Assembly (NCBI RefSeq): GCF_000802235.1
Contig: NZ_JTDL01000037.1
Span: 186,001 to 250,000, forward strand
Direction of reading: 5' to 3'
DNA from: Sinomonas humi
Lineage (GTDB): Bacteria; Actinomycetota; Actinomycetes; Actinomycetales; Micrococcaceae
DNA length: 64,000 bases
The notes under the pieces were generated by a model. It was given only the letters and a program-made list of their open reading frames with translations, did no database searches and was not told where the DNA came from. Shown piece by piece: positions 37,531 to 57,060 of this stretch (within the stretch, counting starts at the first letter, position 1; each line of letters starts with the position of its first letter). Position numbers and translations under genes: made by a program.

Positions 37531-37531
37531 G

Positions 37532-40003: not shown

Positions 40004-40103
40004 GTAGCTCCTCTATCTGTGGTGGGTCACGGCGGACCCGGTGCCTCGCATCATAGCTAGGGGTGGTGACGCCGTCGTTATCTTTCGGCCGTGACTCGGC
40101 TCT

Positions 40104-42758: not shown

Positions 42759-43649
42759 GTGGGGGGACTTGAGACAGAAGCGCATCCGGACCGCAGAACG
42801 CCATTGGCCGAACTGCCACTGGGCGACAGGATCCAGCTCGCCCATGCTCTCGTCGAGTGGCTCTCGGCCGAAGCGGGGATCGACCTCCTGCACATCAAGG
42901 GATACGCGGCTGACCGCGGCCTCTATCCGGCTGGGCGGGCGAGCACTGACGTCGACGTCCTCGTGCGCCCGGCACACGCCGGGCGGCTTGCCGAAATCCT
43001 TCTGGCCCACGGGTGGAAGGTCACGACGACGTTCCGGAGCGGCTCGGTGTTCCATCACGCCATGACGCTCTGGAGCGAGCACTGGGGGCACGTCGACATC
43101 CATCGGAGCTTCCCTGGGATCGGGCTCGACCCGGAGGAATTCTTCGAGCACCTATGGATGCGCCGCGGCGAGTCGACCATTGCGGCATGGCCCTGCCGCG
43201 TTCCCGCCCTTGAGGACCAGGCCCTGTTGATCGTCCTCCACGCCGCCCGCGACCCACACCGAGGCGCCGCCGACGTGGAATCCGTTCGGGAGTCGCTCGG
43301 TCCGGCACGATGGGCTGAGCTCGAGCGTGCCGCCCTTGCCTTCGGGGCGGGCGTGAGCTGGGCTGCGGCGACAGGCCGCCTCGACGACTGGCAGGGCCAC
43401 CCGGAGCGCGCCGTCTGGGAGGTGGTCTCGCGGGGAGGCTCACGCGTCGAACTCTTCCGTGCCCGCTGGCGAGCCTCACGGGGTTCCGCCGAGCGTCTCG
43501 AGCTCATCCGTTCGCTTCTGTTGATCAACGGGGACCACCTGCGCATGAAGCTGCTGAGGGAGCCGAAGGCGTCCGACTATTCGAAAGAACTGGGATCCAG
43601 AGTCGCCGACGTTATGCGGTCGGTGCTCACTCGTCGGCCACGAAGCTAG
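42759..43649 (+). CDS. Nucleotidyltransferase-fold protein (NTP_transf_5-like)
   Basis: 296 residues from GTG at 42759; ribosome binding site weak. The polymerase-beta-like core has LLHIKGYAADRGLYP, then STDVDVLVRP with two aspartates of the metal site and HVDIHRSF with a third. The C-terminal half is helical. Proteins of this family occur in polysaccharide and peptide-modification clusters; their reaction is not settled. It stands at the edge of the surface polysaccharide locus and its last 23 bases overlap the end of the convergent glycosyltransferase gene. Confidence 0.82.
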   Translation: MGGLETEAHPDRRTPLAELPLGDRIQLAHALVEWLSAEAGIDLLHIKGYAADRGLYPAGRASTDVDVLVRPAHAGRLAEILLAHGWKVTTTFRSGSVFHHAMTLWSEHWGHVDIHRSFPGIGLDPEEFFEHLWMRRGESTIAAWPCRVPALEDQALLIVLHAARDPHRGAADVESVRESLGPARWAELERAALAFGAGVSWAAATGRLDDWQGHPERAVWEVVSRGGSRVELFRARWRASRGSAERLELIRSLLLINGDHLRMKLLREPKASDYSKELGSRVADVMRSVLTRRPRS

Positions 43650-44781
43650 GCGAACCAGGGGTGTGGCCACTCGTCAGAGCATCGACTTCGGTCCGCAGGC
43701 GTTCGCGGAACCGGTCCTCCGAGAACCGGTCTACATGCGCGCGAATAGCCGAGTGGTCCCAGTCGCTCTCCTCGAAGGCGAGGACCGCGCTTCGGATCGC
43801 CTCCGCGGTCGGATCTTCGATGAAGCGCCCGGTCACGCCGTCCGCGATCGTGTCGAGATAGCCTCCCGCACGGAGCGCGATCGTCGGCTTTCCCCACGCA
43901 CCGGCCTCGAGCGGCGTGATCCCGAAGTCCTCGTGGGAGGGTGCGATGAGTGCCTTCGCGGAAGCGTACGCCCACCGCATCTGGGCATCCGTTACAAGCC
44001 CGGCTAGGCGGACGTTCGAGGGCCGTGCGGCTTCGAGGGCCCGAGCGAGCGGGCCGGTGCCCACCACAAGCAGCCGCTCGCCGAGACCGCGGAAGGCTTC
44101 GATGGCCTGGTCCACGTTCTTGTACGGAAGAAGCCTCGACACGATTAGGAAGTGGCCGCCGTCGCCCACGAAATCCTCGAGTTCGGGGACCGGATCACGC
44201 CTTCCGGTCACATCGACGCTATGGGGAGGGTGAAGAATGTCAGCCTCCACGCCATAAACTCTGGCGATACGCTCACGGACGACAGTCGAGTTGGCCAAGT
44301 ACCGCTCGGCACTCCACGCGGCGCGTCGATCCCACCGCACGAGATGAGGCTTGAGCGCCGCCAGGCCCGCCCCCTGCACGCTCCGAAGCCCTGCGCTGCC
44401 GAGGTACTGCTCGGCGAGATACAGCCAGCGCGCGGGCGAATGGCAGTAGGCGAGCACGTCCCCTTCGGTACGGAAGCCATGCGCCCAACCGCTCGTCGAC
44501 GCAATGACGACGTCGGCCGGGACCGAGAGCGCGCTCGCTGCCGTCGCCAAGACGGGAAGGGCTGCTCGATGATGCCTGCGGAGAGGGGGAAAGCGGTTGA
44601 GGGCCGAGGTGACGATCCGCGCCCTCCGGAACTCGGGATACGTGCGTTCGGGGTCGTAGAGGGTCGTGTAGATGGTGGCCTCGGGAAACGCTCGATGCAT
44701 TGCAAGCACAACGCGCTCGGCCCCGCCGCGCTGAGTGAGGTAGTCGTGGGCGATCGCCACGACAGGCTTGGTTTGCCGCAA
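43627..44781 (-). CDS. Glycosyltransferase, GT4 family
   Basis: 384 residues from TTG at 44781 after GGGGGAG. GT-B fold: N-terminal VAIAHDYLTQRGGAERVV, C-terminal donor domain with FLIVSRLLPYKNVDQAIEAF, LVVVGTGPLARAL and the acidic motif APSHEDFGITPLEAGAWGKP. It would add a sugar from a nucleotide donor at the cytoplasmic membrane face. It is the last gene of the polysaccharide operon, 57 bases after the GT2 gene. It overlaps tail-to-tail with the nucleotidyltransferase-fold gene. Donor and linkage are unknown. Confidence 0.92.
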   Translation of the reverse strand: MRQTKPVVAIAHDYLTQRGGAERVVLAMHRAFPEATIYTTLYDPERTYPEFRRARIVTSALNRFPPLRRHHRAALPVLATAASALSVPADVVIASTSGWAHGFRTEGDVLAYCHSPARWLYLAEQYLGSAGLRSVQGAGLAALKPHLVRWDRRAAWSAERYLANSTVVRERIARVYGVEADILHPPHSVDVTGRRDPVPELEDFVGDGGHFLIVSRLLPYKNVDQAIEAFRGLGERLLVVGTGPLARALEAARPSNVRLAGLVTDAQMRWAYASAKALIAPSHEDFGITPLEAGAWGKPTIALRAGGYLDTIADGVTGRFIEDPTAEAIRSAVLAFEESDWDHSAIRAHVDRFSEDRFRERLRTEVDALTSGHTPGSPSFVADE

Positions 44782-44838
44782 GATGTCTCCCCCGTGGATT
44801 CCGCGGTTAGGCGGAGCAGTTGTTGTAACCCAGTCGTG

Positions 44839-45810
44839 CTAGAACATTCCGCGTGCGCGGCGCGGATACCTCACCCCGGCGATCCCGGCCGACTCAACCG
44901 CGAGCGCGATGAGCTTCTCCGCGAGCGCGGCAGGCAGCCACGAAGCCGCGGAGTCTGCAGCCGCCCCGTACGCACGCAGCGTCCGCTCGGTCGTGAACGT
45001 GCTCGAGGTGGTGACGACTCTGTCCCACAAACCGGATCTGTCCCACAAGCCGGGCTTCCTCGCAGAGCGAGCGCCGTCGAATTCTCGAAGAGCCGCCTGT
45101 CCGTGTAGGGCGAGGAAAGTCTCGCGCGCGGCACCTGAGTGCAGCGCGCGCACCGCGCGAACCGCCGTCGTCGTCGAGGCACCGTGGTGGACGGCAATGA
45201 GCTCGGGGGCGACGACAATGGGGAATCCCGCTCGGTGCAGGCGATAGCCGAAGTCGACGTCCTCCCACCCGTAGCGGCGATAGCGTCCGTCGTAGCCGCC
45301 TAGCCGTGAGTGGACGGCGGCGGGCACAGAGACATTGGCTGACCAGAGCCGCCACGTGCGCTTGGCCGGGAGGGCGAGGGCGCCTGCGATCGCCCGCGCG
45401 TTCGCCTTGCGTCCGTATGCCCTCGCGTAGGCGGTGTCCGGCAAGGCGTTGGTGGTAAGACCTACGACGCCACATCTCTGAGTCGAGTGCCTCGCGACGT
45501 GCCCTGCGATGAAGTCCGAGCGCGGTTCAAGGTCGTCATCGCAGCGGATGATGATTCGGCCCGCAGCCGCGGCTGCTCCGGCATTGAGTGCAGCGGCGCG
45601 GCCGCGGTTCTCGGGGAAAATGACAGGCTTCAGGTTGAGTCGGTCTGCCCAGCTACGTAGGACCTCCTCGGACCCATCGATGTCGCCGTCAACGACGGGC
45701 ACAACCTCGAAGTCGTCGGTCTCCTGGGCGGCGAGAGTAGCGAGGAGGACAGGCAGACGTGCGGCGCCTCCGCGCGTCGGAATGACGACAGATGCGGCGA
45801 GCCTGCTCAT
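44839..45810 (-). CDS. Glycosyltransferase, GT2 family
   Basis: 323 residues, GT-A fold. ASVVIPTRGGAARLPVLL at the start, the nucleotide-binding DxD-type motif in IIIRCDDDLEPRSDF, and the acceptor-domain pattern GGYDGRYRRYGWEDVDFGYRL. The tail contains a short in-frame duplication GLWDRS-GLWDRV caused by an 18-base tandem repeat (45020-45055). Start ATG overlaps the stop of the upstream GT4 gene by 4 bases. Part of the polysaccharide operon; donor sugar unknown. Confidence 0.92.
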   Translation of the reverse strand: MSRLAASVVIPTRGGAARLPVLLATLAAQETDDFEVVPVVDGDIDGSEEVLRSWADRLNLKPVIFPENRGRAAALNAGAAAAAGRIIIRCDDDLEPRSDFIAGHVARHSTQRCGVVGLTTNALPDTAYARAYGRKANARAIAGALALPAKRTWRLWSANVSVPAAVHSRLGGYDGRYRRYGWEDVDFGYRLHRAGFPIVVAPELIAVHHGASTTTAVRAVRALHSGAARETFLALHGQAALREFDGARSARKPGLWDRSGLWDRVVTTSSTFTTERTLRAYGAAADSAASWLPAALAEKLIALAVESAGIAGVRYPRRARGMF

Positions 45811-46871
45811 GGGGCGCTCTCCGCTTGCTCGATCCGCCTCTCCCCGGGAACGAGGTCGAGGGCAGCGAGAAGACTCCCGAGAGCCTCTCGGCCCACCTCC
45901 GGTGAAAAGAGCTCGGCCCAGCGCTTGTGGGCGCGTTCGACGACGTCATCCGCCGGCAGCGCGGTGGCAGCCTCGGCAATGACGTCGGCGAGGGATTGCG
46001 GATCCCCCGCGTGCGCGATCCAGGGATGGTCATGGCCGACCACCTCGGGGAGCGCGCCCGCGTCAGTCACGACGACCGGGACTCGGGCGGACATCGCCTC
46101 CGTGACGACGAGGCCGAACGGTTCGTCCCAGACGGACGGTACGACCAGAATGTCGATCGTGCCGAGGAACTCGTCCGTGACCATCCATCCGAGTTCCTGG
46201 ACGGAGCGCCCCAGGGAACGGATCCGGCCTTCGACGACGACGCGCTCCCGCGCGTCCACGAAGCGCGGCTCCCCTGCGATGCGCAGGAAGTAGCGGAGCG
46301 GCGCGCGGTGGCGAAGGCGCCCCATGGCATCGGCGAGCAATGGGATGCCCTTCGCCTCGGAGGGCCGCCCAAGGAAGCCGAGGCGGACGGGGCCCTTTCC
46401 CCGCGGAACCAGGACCCGTTCGAGTGCGGGCGACCAGTTTGCGAGCACTCTGGCACCTCGCACCTTCGACGCCATGAACTGAGACGGCACGAGAGTGGCC
46501 ATCGCACGGGCGCGAGCCATGGGCACGACGAGCTGCTGAGGCCCTGCGGGGAGCTGGTGGAGGTGGACAATGCGATGCGCCATGCCCGCCGTCGCTGTGG
46601 CTGGGACCAGCCCGTTGCACCACAGGACCCCTTCCGGGTGGGCCTTCCTCCAGCGCCGCAGCGCGAGCATGTACTCGGGCCGCCCACGGCACGGGAGCGC
46701 CTCGACCGGGAAGCCGCGCTCCTGCGCCGCGACGATCACACCCTGTGGGTTCTCCGGGCCCACGACCAGCACGTCGACCCCCATCTCCCTGAGGACCTCG
46801 GCGATTGCGAGGAGCATGACCTCCCCTCCGCCGATCTCACCGTTGTTGGCCGCGAGAACGATGTGTGTCAT
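45807..46871 (-). CDS. Glycosyltransferase, GT4 family
   Basis: 354 residues, GT-B fold: HIVLAANNGEIGGGEVMLLAIAE at the N-terminus, RLGFLGRPSEAKGIPLLADAM in the donor domain and VPSVWDEPFGLVVTEAMSARVPVVVTD as the conserved acidic motif. Starts with ATG overlapping the stop of the polymerase/ligase gene by 4 bases and overlaps the next gene in the same way. One of several chain-building transferases of the operon; specificity unknown. Confidence 0.92.
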   Translation of the reverse strand: MTHIVLAANNGEIGGGEVMLLAIAEVLREMGVDVLVVGPENPQGVIVAAQERGFPVEALPCRGRPEYMLALRRWRKAHPEGVLWCNGLVPATATAGMAHRIVHLHQLPAGPQQLVVPMARARAMATLVPSQFMASKVRGARVLANWSPALERVLVPRGKGPVRLGFLGRPSEAKGIPLLADAMGRLRHRAPLRYFLRIAGEPRFVDARERVVVEGRIRSLGRSVQELGWMVTDEFLGTIDILVVPSVWDEPFGLVVTEAMSARVPVVVTDAGALPEVVGHDHPWIAHAGDPQSLADVIAEAATALPADDVVERAHKRWAELFSPEVGREALGSLLAALDLVPGERRIEQAESAP

Positions 46872-48082
46872 GTCCCATTCCTCCTGAACCGCTGGATCTC
46901 TTCCGAGGGGCCGGCAGCCGAACCCGCCCGCGGAAATTGGGTGATAGCCGCATATTGCATCGAAATCCCTACCGCAGCCGCCGACGACACGGTCATGAGC
47001 ACCTCACCGAGATTGATCGCACACACTGCGATGCCGATGAGGGTCGCTTCGTACAGGGGGACGCGTCGCGAACCGAGCTTGACGAGGGCTGCGAATGCGG
47101 CGAAAAGGAGGCCGACGACGAGTGCGAACGCGATCCAGCCGCCTTCCGTCCTCACCGAGAGATACGAGCTGTGGTAGAAGAACGTGAGACCGTCGACGAG
47201 AGCGCGCGCTGTCCCGGCACCGTGGCCGAACCAGGGGCTCGTCTGGACATCCGCGAGCGCGGCCTCATCGATCCGAGCACGCAGGGCATCACTCCCTGCT
47301 CGGCCCGAGAAGGCGTCCGCCCCTAGGCCCTCATGGGTCGCGGTGCTGACCCAGAGAACGGCGACAGCGAGAAGGCCGAGCGCAAGCCACGGGTTCACGC
47401 GGAGCCGTCTCAGCAGGAGCCACGCCGCCATCGTGCATGCCGCGAGGAGCGTCGTCCGCGAGTCGGTGAGCAGTACGCCGGCAATCGCAGAGGCCGCAAC
47501 GATCAGCCTGCTCCCTCCCTTGTGAAGGGTTGGGAGCGCCAGACCGGCGCACACGATGATGATGAGCCCGGCGGTGTTCGGGTCGCCGAAGATGCCCGTG
47601 AGTCGGTTCTCGTAAGCACTTTCCTTGAACGTAGCGGCGCCCCAGACAACCCCTATGACCATTCCGAATGCGAGCCCGCGTGCGAGGGCCACCCGATCGA
47701 GCCGACCCGCGGCGATGACGACGATCGCGATGGCGTCGATCGCCAGATGGCTCAAGCGCCGAATGTCCGGATTGCCGAGCGCGATCGAAACCAGGGCGAT
47801 CCACACCGCTCCTGAAAGGGCAAGGACTGGCATCCAGCGCGGAAGAGGCATGGCGTTCGGCCGCGACCCGAGGCCTACCAGGACTGCGAGTCCTGCTGCG
47901 ATCGAGTCGACCGGGATCCCCAGCCCGGGCACGTCGACTCCCCCGACCACGAAGCCGACAGCGCAGAGGAAGGCCAGAAGTTCGGCCATCCCAGCCGGCC
48001 GCATACCGAGGCTCCGGCTTGTGCCGAGGCTGCTCCCTCCGCCAGATGCCAATCGAGGAGACGACAGAGCCCCGGACGTCAC
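46868..48082 (-). CDS. O-antigen polymerase/ligase-like membrane protein (Wzy/WaaL type)
   Basis: 404 residues, GTG at 48082, 4-base overlaps at both ends. About ten to twelve hydrophobic segments, for example LLAFLCAVGFVVGGV, MPVLALSGAVWIALV, WLALGLLAVAVLWVS and WIAFALVVGLLFAAFAAL. The family motif region is ENRLTGIFGDPNTAG and the periplasmic loop SPWFGHGAGTARALVDG-to-HSSYLSV, both typical of O-antigen ligase-like proteins. It would polymerise repeat units or join chains to their anchor outside the membrane. Confidence 0.87.
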   Translation of the reverse strand: MTSGALSSPRLASGGGSSLGTSRSLGMRPAGMAELLAFLCAVGFVVGGVDVPGLGIPVDSIAAGLAVLVGLGSRPNAMPLPRWMPVLALSGAVWIALVSIALGNPDIRRLSHLAIDAIAIVVIAAGRLDRVALARGLAFGMVIGVVWGAATFKESAYENRLTGIFGDPNTAGLIIIVCAGLALPTLHKGGSRLIVAASAIAGVLLTDSRTTLLAACTMAAWLLLRRLRVNPWLALGLLAVAVLWVSTATHEGLGADAFSGRAGSDALRARIDEAALADVQTSPWFGHGAGTARALVDGLTFFYHSSYLSVRTEGGWIAFALVVGLLFAAFAALVKLGSRRVPLYEATLIGIAVCAINLGEVLMTVSSAAAVGISMQYAAITQFPRAGSAAGPSEEIQRFRRNGT

Positions 48083-49242
48083 GCGTTACCCCGCTCGTAC
48101 TCTGCAACGATCAGCGCGGACATCTCCCGCCTCGTCGGCCAGCCCTCCGCCAGGGCAGGGCGTTCATCGCCATCGGCCTGGCGGACGATGGCGTCGGCTA
48201 CGCCGCGCGGATCATCGGCTGCTGCGAGGCACCGCTCAGGGAGGATCTCGGGGTTTCCGCCTACGGGCGTGGCAACGACTCCTAGGCCCGCCCTCACGGC
48301 GTCGAGCAGAGCGTAGGAACAGTTCTCCCATACTGAGAGCTGGACCAGAACGTCTGCGTTCGCCATTGCTGCAGCCGGATCCAGGAAGCCAGGAAGGTCA
48401 ACGGCTTCCCCGAGACCCATATCGCGGACGGCTGCAACGATCGCCGCACGCTCGGGTCCGTCGCCGGCGATTGTGAGCGTTGCGCGCGGATCGAGGTTCC
48501 GCAGCTCGGCGAAAGCGTGCAGGAGGTCTTTGAGGCGCTTCTCGCGTGAGAGCCTGGCCAGCGAGAGAACGCGCAGGCCGTGCCCCACCCTGTCCCCCGA
48601 GCGGACCGACGGCGCGGCGTCACCCGAGCCGCGGGGCGTCACCGCCTCAGCGCTCACACCATTGCCCGAGCCGGTGTCGGGCCGGTCAACGCCGTTGGGG
48701 ACTACCGCGATCTCAGACCGAGGCGACCATTTCTCGACCATCGCACCTTTGGTCGCATGGGAGACGGCTATCGCGGTATTGGTCGCGGCGAGTCGCGCCC
48801 GGTGGACCTGTGCCATGGCTCGCGAGCGCCAAGCGGATCCGTGGTAGACGGCGTCATCAGCTGCGATCCCGTGCTCGGTGGTCACGAGTTGGACGGCCAT
48901 CCCCCTCGTTGCGAGCACCGCGACGACGTCTGCGTAAGCAAGATGCGTGTGCACAACCTCGGGTCTCAGCGCCCGGATCGCCCTGCGGAGTGCGTTCACC
49001 GAAGTCGGCAGTCCGGCGTCCGGACCGAACTTCGTGGCGTAGACGGCAGCACCTGCAGTTCTCAATCGTTCTGCGAGGCGACCCTCCGGGCACATGACCA
49101 CCAGCCGCCAGCCGGGCAGGCCCACTTCCGCGACGTCGAGAACGTGCCGAGCGACCCCACCGAGGTCCGCAACCGGTACCACCCACAATGCGGTGGGGTG
49201 GAGGCTCATCGGCGAGCGCCGGCGTCGAGCGTTCAGAACCAT
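48079..49242 (-). CDS. Glycosyltransferase, GT4 family
   Basis: 387 residues from ATG at 49242, which overlaps the upstream synthase stop by 10 bases; ATG at 49209 is a shorter alternative. GT-B fold: LWVVPVADLGGVARHVLDVAE, RVLSLARLSREKRLKDLLHAF, LTIAGDGPERAAI, and ADVLVQLSVWENCSYALLDAVRAG in place of the usual ESFG motif. A 35-residue Gly/Ser-rich insertion (about 205-240) sits between the two domains. Member of the polysaccharide operon. Confidence 0.9.
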   Translation of the reverse strand: MVLNARRRRSPMSLHPTALWVVPVADLGGVARHVLDVAEVGLPGWRLVVMCPEGRLAERLRTAGAAVYATKFGPDAGLPTSVNALRRAIRALRPEVVHTHLAYADVVAVLATRGMAVQLVTTEHGIAADDAVYHGSAWRSRAMAQVHRARLAATNTAIAVSHATKGAMVEKWSPRSEIAVVPNGVDRPDTGSGNGVSAEAVTPRGSGDAAPSVRSGDRVGHGLRVLSLARLSREKRLKDLLHAFAELRNLDPRATLTIAGDGPERAAIVAAVRDMGLGEAVDLPGFLDPAAAMANADVLVQLSVWENCSYALLDAVRAGLGVVATPVGGNPEILPERCLAAADDPRGVADAIVRQADGDERPALAEGWPTRREMSALIVAEYERGNA

Positions 49243-51473
49243 CGCTCGAGCCTGTCGAGCGCGGTCCAGAAGCCCTCCCCGCTGTTCGTGTGCCCCTGCC
49301 AGATCTCAGGGATGAACCCGACCTCAGGTGCGAGCCGATCAAGCTGTGCGGCGAGCGAAGCCCAGTCGACCTCTCCCTCTCCGATCTGCACGCCCTCGCC
49401 GTCAACGCCCTTCGCGTCCACGAGGTGAAGGTGGATCGTGTGAGGGGCCAAGAGCTCGACCGCTTCGGAGAACGGGATCCCGAGGTGGTTGGCGGCGAGC
49501 TTCGAGTGGGAGACGTCGAGACACAGGCCAATGCCGGTCGACGCGGCGAACTCCGCTGTGTCCTGCGGGTCGAGGAACAGGTTGTGGTACTGCTGGCCGC
49601 CCATAAGCCACGGGTAGGGCGGCAAGGTCTGGGCCGCGAGGCGCACGCCCGAGGTGTCGAGCCGCCCCAGGGCGCTTGCGATCCGCTCGTACATCTGGGC
49701 CCGGTGCTCGGCCGGAACGTGCCGGTCGCGAGTGAACCCGCCCATTGTCACCACCACGATCGGTTCGTCCTCTCGGAACCAGCGGGCGACGGACCGCGTG
49801 ATGCCGATCGTCCGCTGGACCTCTGCGATCGAGCGCTCCCACACCTCGCCGTCGGAGGACGCGAGGTCCACGAGGAAGTCCCCGGCGAAGAGATCAGGCA
49901 GATGGGTCGTGAAACGCATATCGAGCGGCTTGGCGAAGACAGACTCCACGTCGACTTCTAGGTCCTTGTAGGAGAAGTGGAACTCGAGGAAGTCAGGAGT
50001 GCAGTCGGCGACGAGGGCTGCATGGTCGTGATACCGGACCGGCAGCCCCCACGGCCGCCGGAATCGGAAGTCGCGCGCCGCGGGCACGACGTCGCCGAGA
50101 TCGCCGCTGTAGAAGAAGTCTCCTTCCGCGACGGCTCGCCGAAGAGTCCTGCCGAGCAGGCGCGGGAGTGCATTGGGCTGGAGTCCACGCCCGGGACTCT
50201 TGATGTCCACGTCTGCCTCTCGCACCACGTGGCCCATGGGCAGTGGCCTGGCGGCAACGAGAGATTTCGCAAGGTTCGCCCGGTTCATGAGCTCGCCCGT
50301 CGAGACCTCTCGCGGGGCACTCTCCCCAATCGATTCCTCAGCCTCGCGGATCCAGCGGACCATCTCCGCGAATTCATGCGGGAGAAGCGAAACCTTGTGG
50401 TCGTTGCCCTCCATTGAGACGTCCACGGTGAAGTGCTTCTCAATGATCTTGGCCCCGCGCGCCACCGCAGCGAGCGGCACGTGGTAGCCGCGCTCATGCC
50501 CCGAGTAGCCCACGATGCATTGGCCGATCTCAGCGAGCCGATCCATGTACGCAAGGTTCACGTCCTTGAACGGAGCAGGGTATGAGGACTGGCAGTGGAG
50601 CAACGCAAAGCTCGCACCGAGCCCTCGGACCAGCGCAGAGGACTCCCGGATCTCGTCTTCCCGCGACATCCCCGTACTCAGTACGAGCGGCAGGCCCGTC
50701 GATGCGGCTTCGCGCAGAAGCCCGTGGTTGGTCAGATCGGCCGAGGCAATTTTGAGAGCGGGAATGCCGTAGTCAGCGAGAGCTCCCACGCTCGGGCCAT
50801 CCCACGGTGTGCACATGACGTCGATGCCGCGGTCACGGCAATGATCGAAGACCTCGAAGAGCTTCCCTGCCGGGAGCGAGAAGCGTGAGAGGAGGTCGAG
50901 GGTGTACTGGGCGCCCAGATCCTCCCCTTCGCTCGAGCCCCCGGCCTGGCGGTAGAGCGCATCAAGGTCCCGGAGCTGGAACTTGACGGCGTCAGCCCCT
51001 GCGTCGGCCGCCAGATCCACGAGGCGGCGCGCGAGATCGAGGGAGCCATTGTGGTTGTTCCCGATCTCGGCGATCACGAAAGCGGGCTGCCCTGCCCCGA
51101 TCTCGCGGCTCCCGATCGTGAAGACGTCGGCGCGGTCCACTGCTACTGCTACGAGACGACCCCGCTCATCGACGAGGGGGAGGTGACGGATCTCCCTGCC
51201 CATGAGAGTGCCGAGGTCCGGAAGCGGCGTTCCAGCTCTTGCACTCCGGACCCCAGGGTTGGCTACGTGGACGGCAGGAACATCCAGCTCGGCGTTCGGG
51301 TTCTGGACAATCCAGCGCCGGAAGTCACCGTCTGAGAGGGAGCCCCGGAGAACACCGTGCTCGTCAACGCAGAACGCGATCCGCTCCTGGTTCTCGGTGA
51401 TCTTCGCGAGCGCCGTGAGGATCGGAGCCTCGGCGAAGACGATGAAGGGCGCAATGTTGCGCTCGATGATCAC
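49233..51473 (-). CDS. NeuB-like nonulosonate synthase fused to CBS domains and a sugar isomerase-like TIM barrel
   Basis: 746 residues, GTG at 51473 overlapping the neuA-like stop (GTGA). Residues 10-120 are a CBS pair (FCVDEHGVLRGSLSDGDFR; HLPLVDERGRLVAVAV). Residues 130-365 are a NeuB barrel with EIGNNHNG, VKFQLRD, KIASADL, LSTGM, HCQSSYPAP, YSGHERG and EKHFTVD. Residues 395-460 are an SAF/antifreeze-like domain. Residues 475-746 resemble the xylose isomerase-like/AP endonuclease 2 barrel (CLDVSHSKLAANHLG, HLHLVDAKG, EGEVDWASLAAQ). NeuB enzymes condense PEP with an N-acyl hexosamine to give a nonulosonic acid. The last domain could prepare or process the sugar. Single-domain NeuB is about 350 residues. 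Confidence 0.92.
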   Translation of the reverse strand: MIIERNIAPFIVFAEAPILTALAKITENQERIAFCVDEHGVLRGSLSDGDFRRWIVQNPNAELDVPAVHVANPGVRSARAGTPLPDLGTLMGREIRHLPLVDERGRLVAVAVDRADVFTIGSREIGAGQPAFVIAEIGNNHNGSLDLARRLVDLAADAGADAVKFQLRDLDALYRQAGGSSEGEDLGAQYTLDLLSRFSLPAGKLFEVFDHCRDRGIDVMCTPWDGPSVGALADYGIPALKIASADLTNHGLLREAASTGLPLVLSTGMSREDEIRESSALVRGLGASFALLHCQSSYPAPFKDVNLAYMDRLAEIGQCIVGYSGHERGYHVPLAAVARGAKIIEKHFTVDVSMEGNDHKVSLLPHEFAEMVRWIREAEESIGESAPREVSTGELMNRANLAKSLVAARPLPMGHVVREADVDIKSPGRGLQPNALPRLLGRTLRRAVAEGDFFYSGDLGDVVPAARDFRFRRPWGLPVRYHDHAALVADCTPDFLEFHFSYKDLEVDVESVFAKPLDMRFTTHLPDLFAGDFLVDLASSDGEVWERSIAEVQRTIGITRSVARWFREDEPIVVVTMGGFTRDRHVPAEHRAQMYERIASALGRLDTSGVRLAAQTLPPYPWLMGGQQYHNLFLDPQDTAEFAASTGIGLCLDVSHSKLAANHLGIPFSEAVELLAPHTIHLHLVDAKGVDGEGVQIGEGEVDWASLAAQLDRLAPEVGFIPEIWQGHTNSGEGFWTALDRLERWF

Positions 51474-52180
51474 AGCTCTGCTTCCTTCGCCTCGAGCGCG
51501 TCTTGGAACCATCTGAGCTGCTGTTCGGCAATGAGCAGGTCCAGTTCGGTATCGACGTCGATGCCTTCTCGCTCGTCCATCACGAAGAGCCCGACTTTGC
51601 CGCCGAGGCGGTGGCCGCCCTGCTCGTAGATCTCTGTACGAGTGATGTAGAGAGAACCGGTTTCGCGGTATGCATAAGCGGCTTCATCGAGATCCTGCCT
51701 CCGGGGGCGCCGCGCGGGATCATACGCAGCGGACGGCACGTCCCCCCAGAGCCACAGAAACGGTGGCTGCGGAACGACGCCCACCAAGGAGTCGACTCCG
51801 CTTGCCTCGAACTGCTCGAGAGCGCGGTCCAAGGTTCCAGGGAATCGCACGGGCGAGGTCGCTTGAAGCAGCACGACCGCGTCCGGACGCCGCCCTTGCC
51901 GAACGCGTGAGGCGATGGCGTGGCGGACGACGGGCTCGGTGGGCGTCTCGTCGAGCGCCAAAGCCGCAGGCCGTATAAAGGGCACGTCTGCTCCGGCGCC
52001 GCGAGCGACTTCGGCAATCTCGTCGTCGTCCGTCGACACGAGGACATCAAGGCTGGGGCGAGCGTTGAGGGCCTGTTCAATGGTCCAGACGAGGAGTGGC
52101 TTCCCGGCGACGGCGCGGACGTTCTTGCGATGGACGCCCTTCGACCCGCCGCGCGCCGGTATCACGCAGAGTATGCTCAA
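51470..52180 (-). CDS. CMP-nonulosonate (acylneuraminate) cytidylyltransferase, NeuA-like
   Basis: 236 residues from TTG at 52180, preceded by GGGGAAG and overlapping the upstream stop as TTGA. CTP-binding motif CVIPARGGSKGVHRKNV at residues 5-21, then DVLVSTDDDEIAEVA, and LLQATSPVRFPG, all typical of CMP-NeuAc synthetases. The C-terminal part has EREGIDVDTELDLLIAEQ. It would activate the product of the adjacent NeuB-like protein to a CMP-sugar for transfer. Whether the sugar is neuraminic, legionaminic or another nonulosonic acid is open: no NeuC/NeuD-type gene is in the window. Confidence 0.92.
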   Translation of the reverse strand: MSILCVIPARGGSKGVHRKNVRAVAGKPLLVWTIEQALNARPSLDVLVSTDDDEIAEVARGAGADVPFIRPAALALDETPTEPVVRHAIASRVRQGRRPDAVVLLQATSPVRFPGTLDRALEQFEASGVDSLVGVVPQPPFLWLWGDVPSAAYDPARRPRRQDLDEAAYAYRETGSLYITRTEIYEQGGHRLGGKVGLFVMDEREGIDVDTELDLLIAEQQLRWFQDALEAKEAEL

Positions 52181-53331
52181 TTTCTTCCCCTTGGATGCTG
52201 CGGTGCGGATGGCTCGTCGGATACCTGCGGGCCGCAGTGCCCGAGGAGCCGCAGGACATGATCGGCGACGGCGGCCGCGGGTTCGCGCGCCGGCCTCACC
52301 GGAGGCGGCGTGGGCGGCCCGCCCCAACGCCGCATTGAATAGCGGTCCCAGAACTCGAGGAGCCAGCGAGGTGCTTCGGGAAACACGACCCAAGCCGGAA
52401 CGCCCCGTGCAGCGGCCTCGAGCACGCCTGTGGAAAAGGCAGACACGACAGGCCGTTCCAGCTCTCGCAGGGGCCGTCCCGAACGGTCGAATTCAATGCC
52501 GAGACGCTCCCAGAGCGCGTGCTGGAGACGGGATGCGATATCGGTCTCTGCAGGATGGGGCCGGTATATCGCCCCGGTCGCCCGGCAGAAGTCTGCCGTC
52601 ACGCGCCCTTTGGTCCCGCGCGGGAGCTCGGCGCCGTGGAGCTGCCCCAAGTACAGGGGGCGTCCCCCTCGCGATGGCACTGACTGCTCGTTCCTTGCAG
52701 CCCACAACAGCTGCGATCCGATGCTCGAACAGACGACGTCGTCTCGCTGCGCCGCCGCAAACTCGCCGTCCTCGTCGCTGAACGCCAGGAAATGCGATTC
52801 CGGTGGGAGCGGGGGCGCATGCGGGGTCAGGAGACCGTGCTGGACGACAAGTCGCGCCGCACCTGCGGCCCGTGCCCACCGATTGACGAGCGCGCCCACG
52901 GGCAGGAAGTGACCGATCGTCACCACCGCGCGAAGAGCGCCCAAGACCTCGGGCAGAGCGGTTCGATCGGAACCACTCGGAGCCGCGCCGGCGTCGTCCG
53001 GCCCGCACACCGCTGCTGCCCCGCCCAGAGGTACCTCGAGCCATCGCCAGCCCTGCCCCGGCAGCAGGCCAGGGCGCCGCGAGCGCATGAGTACGGCCGC
53101 GTCAATACCGGGGAGCAGCTCGAGGGGACGTAGGAGCGAGGCCAGTTGAGTTGGGGTCTCGGCGTCAAGGCCGATGAGGGCCACCGGCGCGGTTCCCCGT
53201 AGCGCGAGCCAAAGATCGCTCTCCCGTCGAGGGAGAAGCGATGTACGGATGCTCCGCAAACGGTTCTGGCGTCCCTGCCACCGCCGCCACTCCTCAATGT
53301 CGCGTGGAAACAGGAGTCCGTGTTCGGTCAC
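52177..53331 (-). CDS. Candidate nonulosonate (sialic acid-type) transferase, GT-B-like, family not recognised
   Basis: 384 residues, GTG at 53331 overlapping the upstream stop (GTGA). It could not be placed in a named family by eye. Three short motifs of bacterial sialyltransferases appear in the right order and spacing: an acidic D/E-D/E-G type motif (DEDG, 186-189), an HP motif (YRPHPAE, His259-Pro260) and an S-S/T motif (AFSTG, 300-301). LVVQHGLLTPHAP (162-174) is another GT-B-like feature. It ends directly into the neuA-like gene. Transfer of a CMP-activated sugar is therefore proposed. Other membrane-associated polysaccharide transferases with QHG and HP motifs remain possible. Confidence 0.6.
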   Translation of the reverse strand: MTEHGLLFPRDIEEWRRWQGRQNRLRSIRTSLLPRRESDLWLALRGTAPVALIGLDAETPTQLASLLRPLELLPGIDAAVLMRSRRPGLLPGQGWRWLEVPLGGAAAVCGPDDAGAAPSGSDRTALPEVLGALRAVVTIGHFLPVGALVNRWARAAGAARLVVQHGLLTPHAPPLPPESHFLAFSDEDGEFAAAQRDDVVCSSIGSQLLWAARNEQSVPSRGGRPLYLGQLHGAELPRGTKGRVTADFCRATGAIYRPHPAETDIASRLQHALWERLGIEFDRSGRPLRELERPVVSAFSTGVLEAAARGVPAWVVFPEAPRWLLEFWDRYSMRRWGGPPTPPPVRPAREPAAAVADHVLRLLGHCGPQVSDEPSAPQHPRGRN

Positions 53332-54338
53332 ACCCACAGTGCGTCCACCTCGGCAATGCGGTGGGCGAAAGTGTGGTGGGCGAGACTCCGCCGCCGCCCA
53401 GCCTCGCGGATGCGCTCGGACCAAACATGATCGCGCTGTGCGCGGACGGCCAGTTCCACGAGTTCCGACGCCGATTCGAAGACAAGGACTTCCTTGCCGA
53501 CGTCGTAGAACTCGCCGACGTCCTGACGGTCGGCCAGCTGGAGCCCGCCCATCCCCGGGACCTCGAACGTCCGCATCGCCAGGCCGGCTTGGGGTCCATG
53601 AATGTTCACCGCGGCCGCCGCCTCCGCTTGGACGGCGTATGCGCGTTGGAGCGGAATGTCGCGCTCGGCCGGGACGGACGGTCGTGCCAGTTCCCACGTC
53701 CTCAACCTGTCGAAGAGGTGATGAGACCATTGGCGCCCGTACGCCCGAACCGGGAGGCCCGCCTTCCCCAGCTGGGTCAACAGGTCCACCCGGTTCGCGT
53801 ACCGGGCGCCCACGAAGACGATTTCTCCTGAGCGTCTGGCTGACGGAGACGTCAGGTCCGGGTCGAAGGCATTCGGCACAAAGGTCGACTGGATACCGCG
53901 CGCGCAGAGCTGCTGCGCCTCGGCTCGGGCATAGCTGACGACGGGCCCCACCTTGCGGAGGAACTCGTCAGTGAACCGGTGCCGGCGTAGGTCGTCGTAC
54001 AGCCAGAGGATGCGAGGTGTGCGGTGTTCGTCGAGGTGGTGCCAGAACTCGCCTCCGAGCGTGTCACCTTTGATCACCACGACCCGATCAGGTTGCGCCT
54101 CACGAAGCACTGCGAGTGCCCGCCGGGTGGCCCATGTCTCAGCGTGAGCATGACCGTCGAATCCCAGTCGAGCAGGAAGCTCGAAGCGTGCTTTGTTGCG
54201 CAGCTTGTCTGGGAAGCTCTCGAACGCGTCGTAGCAGTGGGTCATGACCTCGTATCCCCGGCTCCCGAACGCACGTGCGATGGAGCGGTGGTAACCGTGG
54301 AAAGTGGGCGTGACGAGCAACAGCCGCAGTGTTCTCAC
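53328..54338 (-). CDS. Glycosyltransferase, CgeB/Glyco_trans_1_2-like
   Basis: 336 residues, GTG at 54338 overlapping the upstream GT2 stop (GTGA). GT-B-like: LRLLLVTPTFHGYHRSIARAF at the start, VVVIKGDTLGGEFW, ILWLYDDLRRH, and in the C-terminal domain IVFVGARYANRVDLL and AMRTFEVPGMGGLQLADRQ, the pattern of CgeB-type transferases. Probably acts in the cytoplasm on a lipid-linked glycan. Member of the polysaccharide operon; substrate unknown. Confidence 0.87.
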   Translation of the reverse strand: MRTLRLLLVTPTFHGYHRSIARAFGSRGYEVMTHCYDAFESFPDKLRNKARFELPARLGFDGHAHAETWATRRALAVLREAQPDRVVVIKGDTLGGEFWHHLDEHRTPRILWLYDDLRRHRFTDEFLRKVGPVVSYARAEAQQLCARGIQSTFVPNAFDPDLTSPSARRSGEIVFVGARYANRVDLLTQLGKAGLPVRAYGRQWSHHLFDRLRTWELARPSVPAERDIPLQRAYAVQAEAAAAVNIHGPQAGLAMRTFEVPGMGGLQLADRQDVGEFYDVGKEVLVFESASELVELAVRAQRDHVWSERIREAGRRRSLAHHTFAHRIAEVDALWV

Positions 54339-55288
54339 CGTGCTTGCCGCCTGACATACCCAAGTTCTCGCCGGAACACGGCGAGCGCGCTTACGTCCCG
54401 CCCTAGAATCTGGCGAAGTGCGTTGGCGCCAGCATTGACGATCGAGGCGGCTGTGAGGGCGGCCCTAAGCTTGCGCTCCCCGCCCCATTTGCGGGCGTAG
54501 ATCAAGCGCGCGGAGACCAACCACTCGCGCCGCAGGCCCGGATCGGAAGAGGCGCCGCCCTCGTGAACGGCGCTCACGGTGCCTACAAAGATCGACGGCA
54601 CGCCTCGCGCACGAAGACGACGCTGCAGATCGACTTCCTCGACGTTCATGAAGAAGCGCTCGTCGAATCCGCCCACCGCACGGAACTCCGCGACCGGCAG
54701 GAGCATCGCCGCGCCGACAACCCAGTCGACGGGAACGACGGCGCCGTCGGTGCAGGCAGCATCGTGACCCACCGCCTCGTGCAGGACATCGAAATGCCGG
54801 AAGCGAGCGAGAGGAGCCAGCCATTCGACGGCCTGATGGGCCACCGTTGGGAAATGGCGTCCAACCCATTGGGGCGCTCCACCGGAATCGTGCAGCTGCG
54901 GGCTGACGAGAGCTGGTTGCCAAGGCGTAGCGGCCTCGACGAGATCACGGACGAAGTTCTTCCCCACGACGAGGTCGGTGTTGAGCACAAGCGCGAGCGG
55001 CGTCTCGACAAGTTCCATTCCCGAATTGACTGCGCTGCCGAAGCCTCCGTTGGTGACGCGGTAAACAACCTCGACGCCCGCAGTCGGGGGGAAGGGAACC
55101 GGCGACGCATCGTCGCTCACGACGATGCGCTTCGGAGCCTGGGGTTCTTGAGCGCGAAGGGCCGCGATGAGCCGCAGCGTCGGTGCCGGATCGCCGTAAT
55201 GGGGGATCACCACAGAGACCTGGAGGTCTGCCCCCGGTTCGGCCGCCTCAGCACGAAACCCTTCCTGACCCGTCCGTGCCACGCTCAC
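54335..55288 (-). CDS. Glycosyltransferase, GT2 family (rhamnosyltransferase-like)
   Basis: 317 residues, GTG at 55288 overlapping the ABC transporter stop (GTGA). GT-A fold with VSVVIPHYGDPAPTLRLIAAL, NGGFGSAVNSGME, the metal motif LVLNTDLVVGK and the acceptor motif GGFDERFFMNVEEVDLQRRL, the usual pattern of rhamnosyltransferase-type GT2 enzymes. The C-terminal helix region (YARKWGGERKL) may associate with the membrane. Second gene of the operon. Confidence 0.92.
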   Translation of the reverse strand: MSVARTGQEGFRAEAAEPGADLQVSVVIPHYGDPAPTLRLIAALRAQEPQAPKRIVVSDDASPVPFPPTAGVEVVYRVTNGGFGSAVNSGMELVETPLALVLNTDLVVGKNFVRDLVEAATPWQPALVSPQLHDSGGAPQWVGRHFPTVAHQAVEWLAPLARFRHFDVLHEAVGHDAACTDGAVVPVDWVVGAAMLLPVAEFRAVGGFDERFFMNVEEVDLQRRLRARGVPSIFVGTVSAVHEGGASSDPGLRREWLVSARLIYARKWGGERKLRAALTAASIVNAGANALRQILGRDVSALAVFRRELGYVRRQAR

Positions 55289-57060
55289 ACCCGGCCCAAG
55301 GAAACGAGCTGCGAAAATTCGGGACTGAGCTCTCGCACTTCCTCGAACGTCCCCTCTGCAGCGACGGAGCCAGCGGAAAGAAAGAGGATCTTGTCGGCAT
55401 GGCGAACGGTCGAGAGGCGATGGGCGACCACGATGACCGTCATGAGGCCGCTCAACCGCTCCACCGTTTCGGTGATGCGGTACTCCGTCGCGCCGTCCAA
55501 CGAGGAGGTGGCCTCGTCGAGGACCAGGACCTTGGGCTTCCGATACAGTGCGCGCGCAATCCCCACCCGCTGACGCTGACCGCCCGAGAGCCTCACCCCG
55601 CGTTCGCCCAACCGAGCTGCGAGTCCGTCCGGAAGGTCCGCAATCACGGCGTCGAGCTGAGCAAGGCGCACAGCTTCGCGGAGACGGTCGAGGTCAGTGG
55701 CACCCTCGCCGAGAGTGATATTCGCCTCGAGCGTGTCATCGAGGAGGAAGACCTCCTGCGGGACGACCCCCAGTCCGGCATACCAACTGTTGAGATCGTC
55801 CTTGGTATTGACGCCGCCACAAGTGATCGAACCGCTCGTGGGCTCCAGCAGTCCGAGGACGAGATCGAGCAGTGTGCTCTTGCCTGCGCCGCTCGCGCCG
55901 ACGAAAGCGGTCGTGCGCCCGCGTTCGATGGTGGTCGACACACTGCGAAGCACTGGCTCATCCGCATCAGGAAAGGCGAACGTCACGCGGTCGAGGCGAA
56001 TGTCGCCGTCGTACACCCTGCTCGGCGGCGCCAATGGGTGGCGCTCGGCACGATCGAGCTCCTTGGTTTCGGCGGCCAAGACGGCGAGCGCCTTCTGTCC
56101 GGAGCGGATCAGGCCTGTGGTTGCAACCAGCCGATTGACGGTGGGCAGGATCCGGGTTGCGGCGACCGAGAAGACCCCGATGACGGAAGCTGCTTCACCC
56201 GGGCTCTGGGTCGCGAACAGGAGAGCAGCGACGGCCCCGATGCCCGCCACGAACGCCACCTCGAGAACGTATTTCGGAAGTTCCGAAATGAGCGACAGCT
56301 CGCGCTGGGCATGAGCTCGTTCGTGCTTCGCCTGGCGGAGCCGCCCGACGAAGAGCTCTTCTGCTCCGGCGAGCCGCACCTCGCGGAAGCCGTGGAGGGT
56401 TGGCATGAGCGCAGACCAGGATTCGAGATCCACCCGCGCCATGGTCTCGCCGACTCTTCCGAAGCGAGGACGGAGAACGCGCTGAACCGTCCAGCCTGAG
56501 CCCGCGAAGACCACGGCCGCGAGCACCGTTGCGGATGGCGATACAGAGAGGAGAACGACGACGACGGCTAGCAGAGTGAGCGCGTCGGTAATCCAGTTGA
56601 GGAGGCCTTGGACCACTTGGGAGAAGGTTTGCGGCACGAACGATTCGACGCAGCGACGGATCTCTCCCACATTGCGCAGACGGTGCGTCCCGTAAGGCGA
56701 CAGCACGTATCGGCGTGTGAGTTCGACGGAAGCCTCGGCCTCGAGGCCCGTCGTGAAGCCGAGCTGCCACCAGCGGAAGCCTATGGTGACGAGGCTTTTG
56801 AGGACGAAGGCACACGCTATGAGGCCTGCGATGGCGGGAATGAGGATGCCGGGCTCCGACGATCCGACGATCCGAGCGGCCCAGGCTGCTGGCCCGTTCT
56901 CTGCCGAGCCCCCTGTGACCAGCTGCATCAGTGGGAGCACTGCGGCCACGCCGAGCATGTCGAGCACTGCCACAAGGCACGAACCGACCACCGAAAGAAG
57001 AGTCCGCCCGGCAACCGGACCTCCGACGAGCCCACGGACTGTCCTCAGCTTTTCGATCAC
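55285..57060 (-). CDS. ABC transporter, fused permease and ATPase (PglK-like flippase candidate)
   Basis: 591 residues, GTG at 57060 after GGAG. N-terminal six-helix membrane domain (LLSVVGSCLVAVLDMLGVAAVLP; LTLLAVVVVLLSV; VAFVAGIGAVAALLF), then an ATPase with Walker A VGASGAGKSTLLDLV, signature VRLSGGQRQRVGIARAL, Walker B KVLVLDEATSSLD and the switch His in VAHRLSTVRHAD. Half-transporters of this type flip lipid-linked oligosaccharides or export lipids. As first gene of the polysaccharide operon it is the best candidate for moving the glycan across the membrane. Confidence 0.93.
   Translation of the reverse strand: MIEKLRTVRGLVGGPVAGRTLLSVVGSCLVAVLDMLGVAAVLPLMQLVTGGSAENGPAAWAARIVGSSEPGILIPAIAGLIACAFVLKSLVTIGFRWWQLGFTTGLEAEASVELTRRYVLSPYGTHRLRNVGEIRRCVESFVPQTFSQVVQGLLNWITDALTLLAVVVVLLSVSPSATVLAAVVFAGSGWTVQRVLRPRFGRVGETMARVDLESWSALMPTLHGFREVRLAGAEELFVGRLRQAKHERAHAQRELSLISELPKYVLEVAFVAGIGAVAALLFATQSPGEAASVIGVFSVAATRILPTVNRLVATTGLIRSGQKALAVLAAETKELDRAERHPLAPPSRVYDGDIRLDRVTFAFPDADEPVLRSVSTTIERGRTTAFVGASGAGKSTLLDLVLGLLEPTSGSITCGGVNTKDDLNSWYAGLGVVPQEVFLLDDTLEANITLGEGATDLDRLREAVRLAQLDAVIADLPDGLAARLGERGVRLSGGQRQRVGIARALYRKPKVLVLDEATSSLDGATEYRITETVERLSGLMTVIVVAHRLSTVRHADKILFLSAGSVAAEGTFEEVRELSPEFSQLVSLGRV

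Follow-up and report, generated by a model that had tools for sequence, protein, structure and literature searches.

CMP-sugar transferases and the Sinomonas humi protein

Transferases of the GT38 and GT80 families have HP and S-T residues that were shown to bind CMP, and the base in PmST1 and MhPST is the second acid of the D/E-D/E-G motif, Asp141 and Glu153, respectively (PMC2169525, PMC5517516). In MhPST, the residues His291, Ser339, and Thr340 were proposed to bind the CMP donor (PMC5517516). The beta-Kdo transferases have an invariant QXXXD motif with an Asp nucleophile (PMC10148158), and TagF has two catalytic histidines, His444 and His584 (PMC5974469). Two TagB-domain proteins of Tannerella forsythia are described as plausible pseudaminate and legionaminate transferases (PMC7439481). 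The protein analysed here, called the target, is encoded in a stretch of 64,000 nucleotides from Sinomonas humi (the window), in a surface-polysaccharide cluster that also encodes NeuA-like and NeuB-like enzymes, and was read in an earlier note as a transferase of a CMP-activated nonulosonic acid.

52177..53331, minus strand: target gene, GTG start, 384 amino acids, predicted GT-B CMP-nonulosonate transferase (open reading frame, homologues, structural model, and profile alignment)

The reading frame of the target is real and runs from the GTG at 53331 to the TGA at 52177. It lies within a longer open frame that extends up to 53730, and the similarity to homologues starts at or near the GTG at 53331. 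The target is quite likely a GT-B-fold CMP-nonulosonate transferase for surface polysaccharide and a divergent relative of the PF07388 family. This reading, whose function is that proposed in the earlier note, is supported by the coupling of the gene to neuA and neuB, by its co-occurrence with NeuB, by the mutual exclusion with PF07388, and by the remote homology of the C-terminal, nucleotide-binding half to PF07388. The function is of a known kind, and the family and a possible histidine base are new; no transferase or description for the target family was found in the open-access literature searched.

Collection of homologues

Relatives of the target were collected from two sources. The first comprises 98 genomes, Sinomonas humi included, of which 18 have a match (one is a spurious fragment and one is degenerate), and the second comprises the contigs of GTDB genomes, which yielded 112 relatives, the best 80 of which were examined. 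These 80 loci and the window protein form alignment A2, with 81 sequences. The loci were retrieved with the patterns LGQ[LM]HGAE and EFW[DE]RY[GS][ML], which in part builds in the invariance of the residues they contain; the QHG, Asp188, HP, and STG residues discussed below fall outside these patterns. The two collections share some genomes (locus L021, for example, comes from genome G006) and are not independent.

Alignment A1, drawn from 20 places, was built without the degenerate copy L017, the match L018 (45 residues in a 78-codon frame), and L019 and L020, which are second pieces of the L016 and L011 genes, respectively. The match L018 is also the reason why its genome, G030, does not enter the target column of the co-occurrence table. 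Alignment A3 was made without L101 and L104, the set of 20 PF07388 proteins without L101, L146, and L147, and the set of 18 PF02350 proteins without L165 and L168.

Among the best 80 relatives, the target family spans about twenty actinobacterial genera, mostly of Micrococcales and Propionibacteriales, and forms a specific set of unannotated enzymes whose partner synthase and cytidylyltransferase are named. The closest named relative is found in Sinomonas susongensis and has 70% identity. In viral contigs, the pattern gave 49 candidates, none of them a relative, and plasmids yielded no relatives either. A phylum-wide search of 396 genomes with the family alignment returned the Sinomonas humi genome itself and two marginal fragments, which were judged to be chance or general GT-B similarity.

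Association with NeuB and exclusion of PF07388

The target is found in 17 of the 98 genomes, NeuB in 41, and PF07388 in 19. NeuB is present in 16 of the 17 target genomes and in all 19 PF07388 genomes, and the target and PF07388 never occur together (0/98). Exactly one of the two is found in 35 of the 41 NeuB-positive genomes, and the Fisher p value for their exclusion within this group is 7e-7, uncorrected for kinship. In the genus of Sinomonas humi, all eight NeuB-positive genomes have the target and all seven NeuB-negative genomes lack it, and within three genera (g1, g4, and g6), congeners that differ in the target differ in NeuB as well. By coordinates, NeuB is within 1.5 kb of the target in 16/16 genomes. 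It is within 4 kb of PF07388 in 18/19, and in the remaining genome the two genes fall on different contigs. Most simply, the target family and PF07388 would be alternative transferases for the product of NeuB and NeuA.

The single target genome without NeuB, G069, has a degenerate copy (L017) that lacks the HP and FSTG motifs, which looks like decay following loss of the donor pathway.

In the window, the target gene is followed by the genes of these two partner enzymes:

51470..52180, minus strand: NeuA-like cytidylyltransferase, 236 amino acids, putative TTG start (PF02348, 1.2e-18; best NCBIfam match PseF, 134.1 bits, below the 205.7 cut-off)
49233..51473, minus strand: NeuB-type synthase, a fusion of CBS, NeuB, SAF, and TIM-barrel domains, putative GTG start at 51473 (PF03102, 1.8e-77)

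The target had been described as translationally coupled to neuA by a GTGA overlap. The overlap exists and reads TTGA (52180-52177), if neuA starts there; the GTGA at 53331-53328 joins the target to the preceding PF13524 gene instead. The coupling of neuA to neuB, also proposed before, holds as a GTGA overlap if neuB starts at 51473. The arrangement is conserved among the 80 loci, of which 76 have NeuA and 74 have NeuB, and in 73 of the NeuA-bearing loci, the putative NeuA start is at most 60 bp away from the stop of the target. Six loci lack NeuB: L046, L051, and L092 carry NeuA and reach the contig end, whereas the genomes of L087, L088, and L090 encode NeuB elsewhere, for L090 on the same contig at a distance of about 14 kb. 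A further locus, L093, has a NeuB fragment at the contig end and no NeuA, and no NeuB over the threshold was found when its genome was searched.

Homology of the C-terminal domain to PF07388

The alpha-2,8-polysialyltransferase family PF07388, which we take to cover GT38 enzymes, among them SiaD/MhPST of Mannheimia and polyST of Neisseria, is absent from the Sinomonas humi genome by profile search, and its model matches neither the target (E≤1) nor any of 16 family members (E≤10). PF07388 members from actinobacterial relatives typically carry H-S-D-G-L-M-S-Y-G-P-T-R, followed by LGQYL, FKPHPS, and CFSTA, and the counterparts in the window protein are VVQHGLLTP, LGQLHGAEL, YRPHPAE, and AFSTG. 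In the sequence alignment, the HP of the target family falls on the HP of PF07388, and its STG on the STA or STG.

Comparison of the profiles by hhalign gave 57% for the target family against 10 PF07388 sequences and 81.3%, with a score of 49.05, against the 20 actinobacterial PF07388 proteins. Among the controls, the scores of PF04464 and of nine families of neighbouring proteins reach at most 24.7, those of 30 column shuffles at most 26.1, and that of the reversed profile 16.1. The C-terminal domain alone gives 94.6% and a score of 48.4 against PF07388, with at most 18.5 for 100 shuffles and at most 23.6 for nine control profiles. A direct tblastn search with the target also found the PF07388 locus L102, at an E-value of 4.7e-4 over residues 251-316.

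Both families have homologous C-terminal domains, with LGQ, K/R-P-H-P, and F-S-T in the same order and with similar HP-to-S spacing (40-41 residues in the target family and 48 in PF07388), and both are seated at NeuB loci, where each replaces the other among relatives. In contrast, the target is below any Pfam threshold, its N-terminal half has no significant alignment, it has Q-H-G where PF07388 has S/A-D-G (E-E-G in one member) at the presumed base, and its spacing from this site to HP is shorter. On these sequence comparisons, the target family is a divergent relative of PF07388 through a homologous C-terminal domain and not a member of it. The earlier suggestion of a possible new family is supported by this 81-member actinobacterial set, which lies outside PF07388 by the tests applied.

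For GT42, GT52, GT80, GT97, and GT100, there is no relevant match to Pfam (16 members, E≤10) or NCBIfam (target, E≤1) models, in a search that left families without a Pfam model and profile-profile comparison outside its scope; the assignment of Pfam and NCBIfam models to these CAZy families is our assumption. The target shares with GT80 PmST1 and GT52 Lst the HP motif, a predicted GT-B fold, and an acid in the N-terminal half, which is the invariant Asp188 in the target (PMC2169525). It differs from them by the absence of a family match and of a strict D/E-D/E-G motif, and they are not among its structural matches listed.

Conserved residues and proposed active site

The earlier assignment started from the three short motif types of bacterial sialyltransferases, and DEDG, YRPHP, and AFSTG are all found at residues 186-189, 256-260, and 298-302 of the target. 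Of 5000 shuffled versions of the target protein, 140 also have three such motifs in order and with loose spacing, as do 56 of the 1494 other long frames between stops that the 80 loci contain in all six frames. The motifs by themselves are weak evidence because they are this frequent in shuffles and unrelated frames, and their conservation is a better test. In alignment A2, the relevant residues are as follows:

52834..52842, minus strand: Gln164-His165-Gly166, invariant (81/81), placed by the best profile alignment on the S/A-D-G site of PF07388, which corresponds to D/E-D/E-G, in an N-terminal part that is not significant alone
52765..52776, minus strand: Asp186-Glu187-Asp188-Gly189, the first motif of the earlier note, in which Asp188 alone is invariant (81/81)
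52642..52650, minus strand: Leu228-Gly229-Gln230, start of the C-terminal domain, an LGQ-like step also found in PF07388 members, within a locus-finding pattern and therefore invariant partly by construction
52552..52557, minus strand: His259-Pro260, the HP motif (81/81), with a putative role in CMP-phosphate binding or as general acid by analogy
52426..52437, minus strand: Phe299-Ser300-Thr301-Gly302, with STG in 81/81 and a putative role in CMP-phosphate binding by analogy

Two parts of the three-motif argument, HP and S-T-G, stand with 81/81 each, and the third does not. The strict D/E-D/E-G form at residues 187-189 is found in only 4 of the 81 sequences, and the commonest residues at these positions are A-D-A. 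The reading of DEDG as this motif was therefore rejected for want of conservation. The motif is a coincidence in few copies around the truly conserved Asp188.

A likelier equivalent of D/E-D/E-G is QHG (residues 164-166), which is invariant. In the predicted model, QHG follows the strand 159-163 after a strand-helix unit, and the SDG of PF07388 sequences appears, from its sequence context, to be placed alike. The best N-terminal alignment sets Q-H-G on S-D-G, a part that drops out at higher alignment stringency. The distance from QHG to HP in the target family is 93-120 residues (median 96), and the corresponding distance in PF07388, measured in 17 of the 20 proteins, is 114-127 (median 118); the residue numbers of NmB-polyST and MhPST give 125 and 138 (PMC2169525, PMC5517516). 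Asp188 is 71 residues away from His259 in the target. QHG is favoured over Asp188 because of its strand context and because its spacing to HP is nearer to that of PF07388.

In the proposed pathway, NeuB would condense a six-carbon sugar with PEP, NeuA would convert the product to a CMP-sugar, and the target would take the nine-carbon nonulosonic acid from the CMP-nonulosonate and transfer it to a lipid-linked or growing surface polysaccharide, which the surrounding glycosyltransferases, the Wzy-type polymerase, and the ABC exporter would provide. The C-terminal domain would hold CMP, with His259 of the HP motif acting as the acid to the leaving phosphate and Ser300 and Thr301 binding the phosphate. 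A residue of the N-terminal domain would activate the acceptor hydroxyl, most likely His165 of QHG, with Asp188 as an alternative or partner. His165 would then stand in for the carboxylate that is catalytic in D/E-D/E-G, or Asp188 would take this position if the N-terminal alignment is wrong.

By analogy to the GT38 and GT80 enzymes, the reaction is probably inverting. It is possible, if somewhat short of probable, that the family consists of inverting CMP-nonulosonate transferases in which His165 replaces the D/E-D/E-G carboxylate and two histidines serve acceptor activation and the leaving group, in a TagF-like manner on a CMP-sialic-type donor. A histidine at such a site has precedent, because TagF-like enzymes use two catalytically important histidines, and a histidine in place of the acid base of a sialyltransferase-like enzyme is a testable mechanistic question.

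The same histidines could be taken to mean that the target is itself a TagF- or TagB-like transferase of a CDP-activated polyol phosphate, with QHG as the catalytic HG and His259 as the second catalytic histidine. The H-G step before the C-terminal domain and the second conserved histidine do resemble PF04464, whose consensus has WHGTPLK and R-x-H. In contrast, the target has no PF04464 match and an hhalign value of 0.4% against it, its FSTG and HP are matched in the PF04464 consensus by TDYSS and by no conserved HP, respectively, and the gene context is different, with NeuA and NeuB as neighbours and no PF04464 in the Sinomonas humi genome at E≤1e-10. Such a function is very improbable.

Predicted structure

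The AlphaFold2 models of the window protein (mean pLDDT 90.1, pTM 0.88) and of its homologue at L087 (mean pLDDT 94.0, pTM 0.91) match mostly GT-B-fold enzymes in the PDB, as judged from the best 50 of 912 and 893 Foldseek matches, respectively. The best matches are UDP-GlcNAc 2-epimerases for the window model and SenB for the L087 model, with TM values of 0.4-0.5. A structure search of BFVD gave generic matches, including a 2-epimerase, a capsule polysaccharide protein, and a CDP-glycerol transferase. No match to a non-sialyl family was found at the sequence level, and non-sialyl enzymes of GT-B fold lead the structural matches in the PDB, at TM values of 0.4-0.5 only.

The structural matches raise the possibility that the target is a UDP-GlcNAc 2-epimerase-like enzyme in the role of NeuC, which supplies the substrate of NeuB and is not a transferase. 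A precursor enzyme would co-occur with NeuB as well, and PF02350, the UDP-GlcNAc 2-epimerase family, was not found at E≤1e-10 in Sinomonas humi or in seven other target-bearing genomes of the genus (G002, G003, G006, G007, G009, G010, and G014). The TM value of these matches is only about 0.45, there is no Pfam match, and PF02350 occurs alongside the target in G017 and G027; HP and FSTG are common to the target and PF07388 instead. This role is extremely improbable and was rejected by the profile comparison, which gives 0.28% against the 18 PF02350 proteins.

The matches listed for the L087 model include KpsC and WbbB, two enzymes that use CMP-Kdo, at E-values of 5e-3 to 1e-2. The target shares with these beta-Kdo enzymes the HP motif (PMC10148158) and, putatively, a CMP-ulosonate donor, and it might accordingly be a retaining CMP-ulosonate transferase with a covalent Asp or Glu intermediate, formed at one of the invariant residues Glu235, which is inside a locus-finding pattern, and Asp188. 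The defining QXXXD motif is absent at the sole matching strand end that can be named, where the residue four positions after Gln230 is Ala in 81/81 sequences, within the locus-finding pattern. KpsC is not among the best 50 of the 912 matches of the window model, and the profile relation is to PF07388. A retaining mechanism of this type is quite improbable. A search of 198 genomes for PF05159, the KpsC-type family, gave a single match.

Several results weigh against the nonulosonate transferase assignment. The target protein has no match in Pfam (E≤1), NCBIfam (E≤1), or PHROG, and 16 family members searched against the whole Pfam library at E≤10 gave three chance-level matches only, each in a single member. 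The N-terminal part scores 11.1 against PF07388, with shuffles up to 20.3, and is not significant. No GT38, GT52, or GT80 enzyme, SiaD included, is among the best 50 of the 912 and 893 PDB matches of either model; the structural matches of the predicted models do not single out sialyltransferases and weigh against close membership. Neither the target nor PF07388 is found in six NeuB-positive genomes. The PF13524 glycosyltransferase next to the target, found in 77/80 loci, is equally conserved there. An argument of this type has also failed once already: in Bacillus subtilis, SpsB has DEG and HP motifs and is encoded next to the genes for CMP-legionaminate, but spores still carried legionaminic acid after it was deleted (PMC7439481).

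In addition, the PDB searched by sequence with the target alone and with the family profile gave no relative, and the PF07388 profile, run against the PDB sequences, reached SiaD only at an E-value of 1.8.

The PF13524 neighbour and the SpsB precedent raise the question of whether another glycosyltransferase of the cluster, with the PF13524 protein as the best candidate, transfers the nonulosonic acid, in which case the target would transfer an ordinary NDP-sugar to the same polysaccharide. The best Foldseek matches of the target, which are UDP-sugar GT-B-fold enzymes, are in line with this division of roles. However, the PF13524 family gives 0.18% against the PF07388 profile and the target 81-95%, and the target and PF07388 are mutually exclusive. 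In addition, the target is the only one of eleven cluster proteins found at two syntenic loci of Dermabacteraceae (L087, 7998-9026, and L088, 7998-9023), with NeuB elsewhere in the genome. In both, the gene is set apart from the glycan cluster and has intact QHG, HP, and STG motifs; at L087, its neighbours encode a methyltransferase on one side and a ParA-like ATPase on the other. It is thus unlikely that the PF13524 protein or another glycosyltransferase has this function, and the target is preferred as the nonulosonate transferase.

Surface-polysaccharide cluster

The cluster around the target is a surface-polysaccharide cluster. Upstream of the target are the PF13524 glycosyltransferase, a GT2 protein, and an ABC transporter, and downstream are NeuA and the NeuB fusion, followed by GT4, Wzy-like, GT4, GT2, and GT4 proteins. 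The genes for a priming transferase of the Bac_transf type and for a sugar epimerase/dehydratase are oriented divergently from the cluster.

53328..54338, minus strand: glycosyltransferase PF13524, WaaS/CpsH-like, below the cut-off of that model (Pfam/NCBIfam)
54335..55288, minus strand: GT2-type glycosyltransferase of the same cluster (profile match)
55285..57060, minus strand: ABC transporter of the MsbA/HepA/PglK type (profile match)
43627..49242, minus strand: remaining surface-polysaccharide genes, with three GT4-type and one GT2-type glycosyltransferases and a Wzy-like polymerase, PF04932 (profile match)

In the NeuB synthase fusion, the CBS domains are in front of the synthase domain, and the SAF domain and a xylose-isomerase-like TIM barrel are behind it. 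The fusion is covered to at least 90% by one tblastn match in 69 of the 74 loci with a NeuB match, and its TIM barrel perhaps supplies the aldose substrate.

Nonulosonic acid and second cluster

The NeuB of the window scores 298 bits with the N-acetylneuraminate synthase model (cut-off 399.65) and 219 bits with the pseudaminic acid synthase model (cut-off 340.25), both below the cut-off. Since no PF02350 enzyme is found at E≤1e-10 in the eight target-bearing genomes of the genus, the usual ManNAc route, with an enzyme of this UDP-GlcNAc 2-epimerase family, is probably not the source of the nonulosonic acid. Teichulosonic acid polymers contain nonulosonic acids, and teichulosonic acids are reportedly found in actinomycete cell walls. 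The gene cluster SCO4873-SCO4882 of Streptomyces coelicolor is reported in connection with teichulosonic acid.

A PseI-type synthase on another Sinomonas humi contig scores 463.6 bits, over the cut-off. It belongs to a second nonulosonate cluster (contig C56, 9000-26000; locus L153), which also encodes a flippase-like protein, a DegT aminotransferase, a fused Glyco_tran_28_C and GNAT protein, read as PseG/PseH-like, and a BNR-repeat (sialidase-like) protein beside the synthase. Two genes ahead of PseI, at L153:5230-6258 on the plus strand, is a 342-amino-acid protein without a Pfam match at E≤1e-4, possibly a transferase or maturation protein of this second cluster.

Elsewhere in the window, the region 33332-42203 on the minus strand has four frames with alpha-amylase catalytic domains, two of them with CBM48, and is an ordinary alpha-glucan/trehalose-type cluster.

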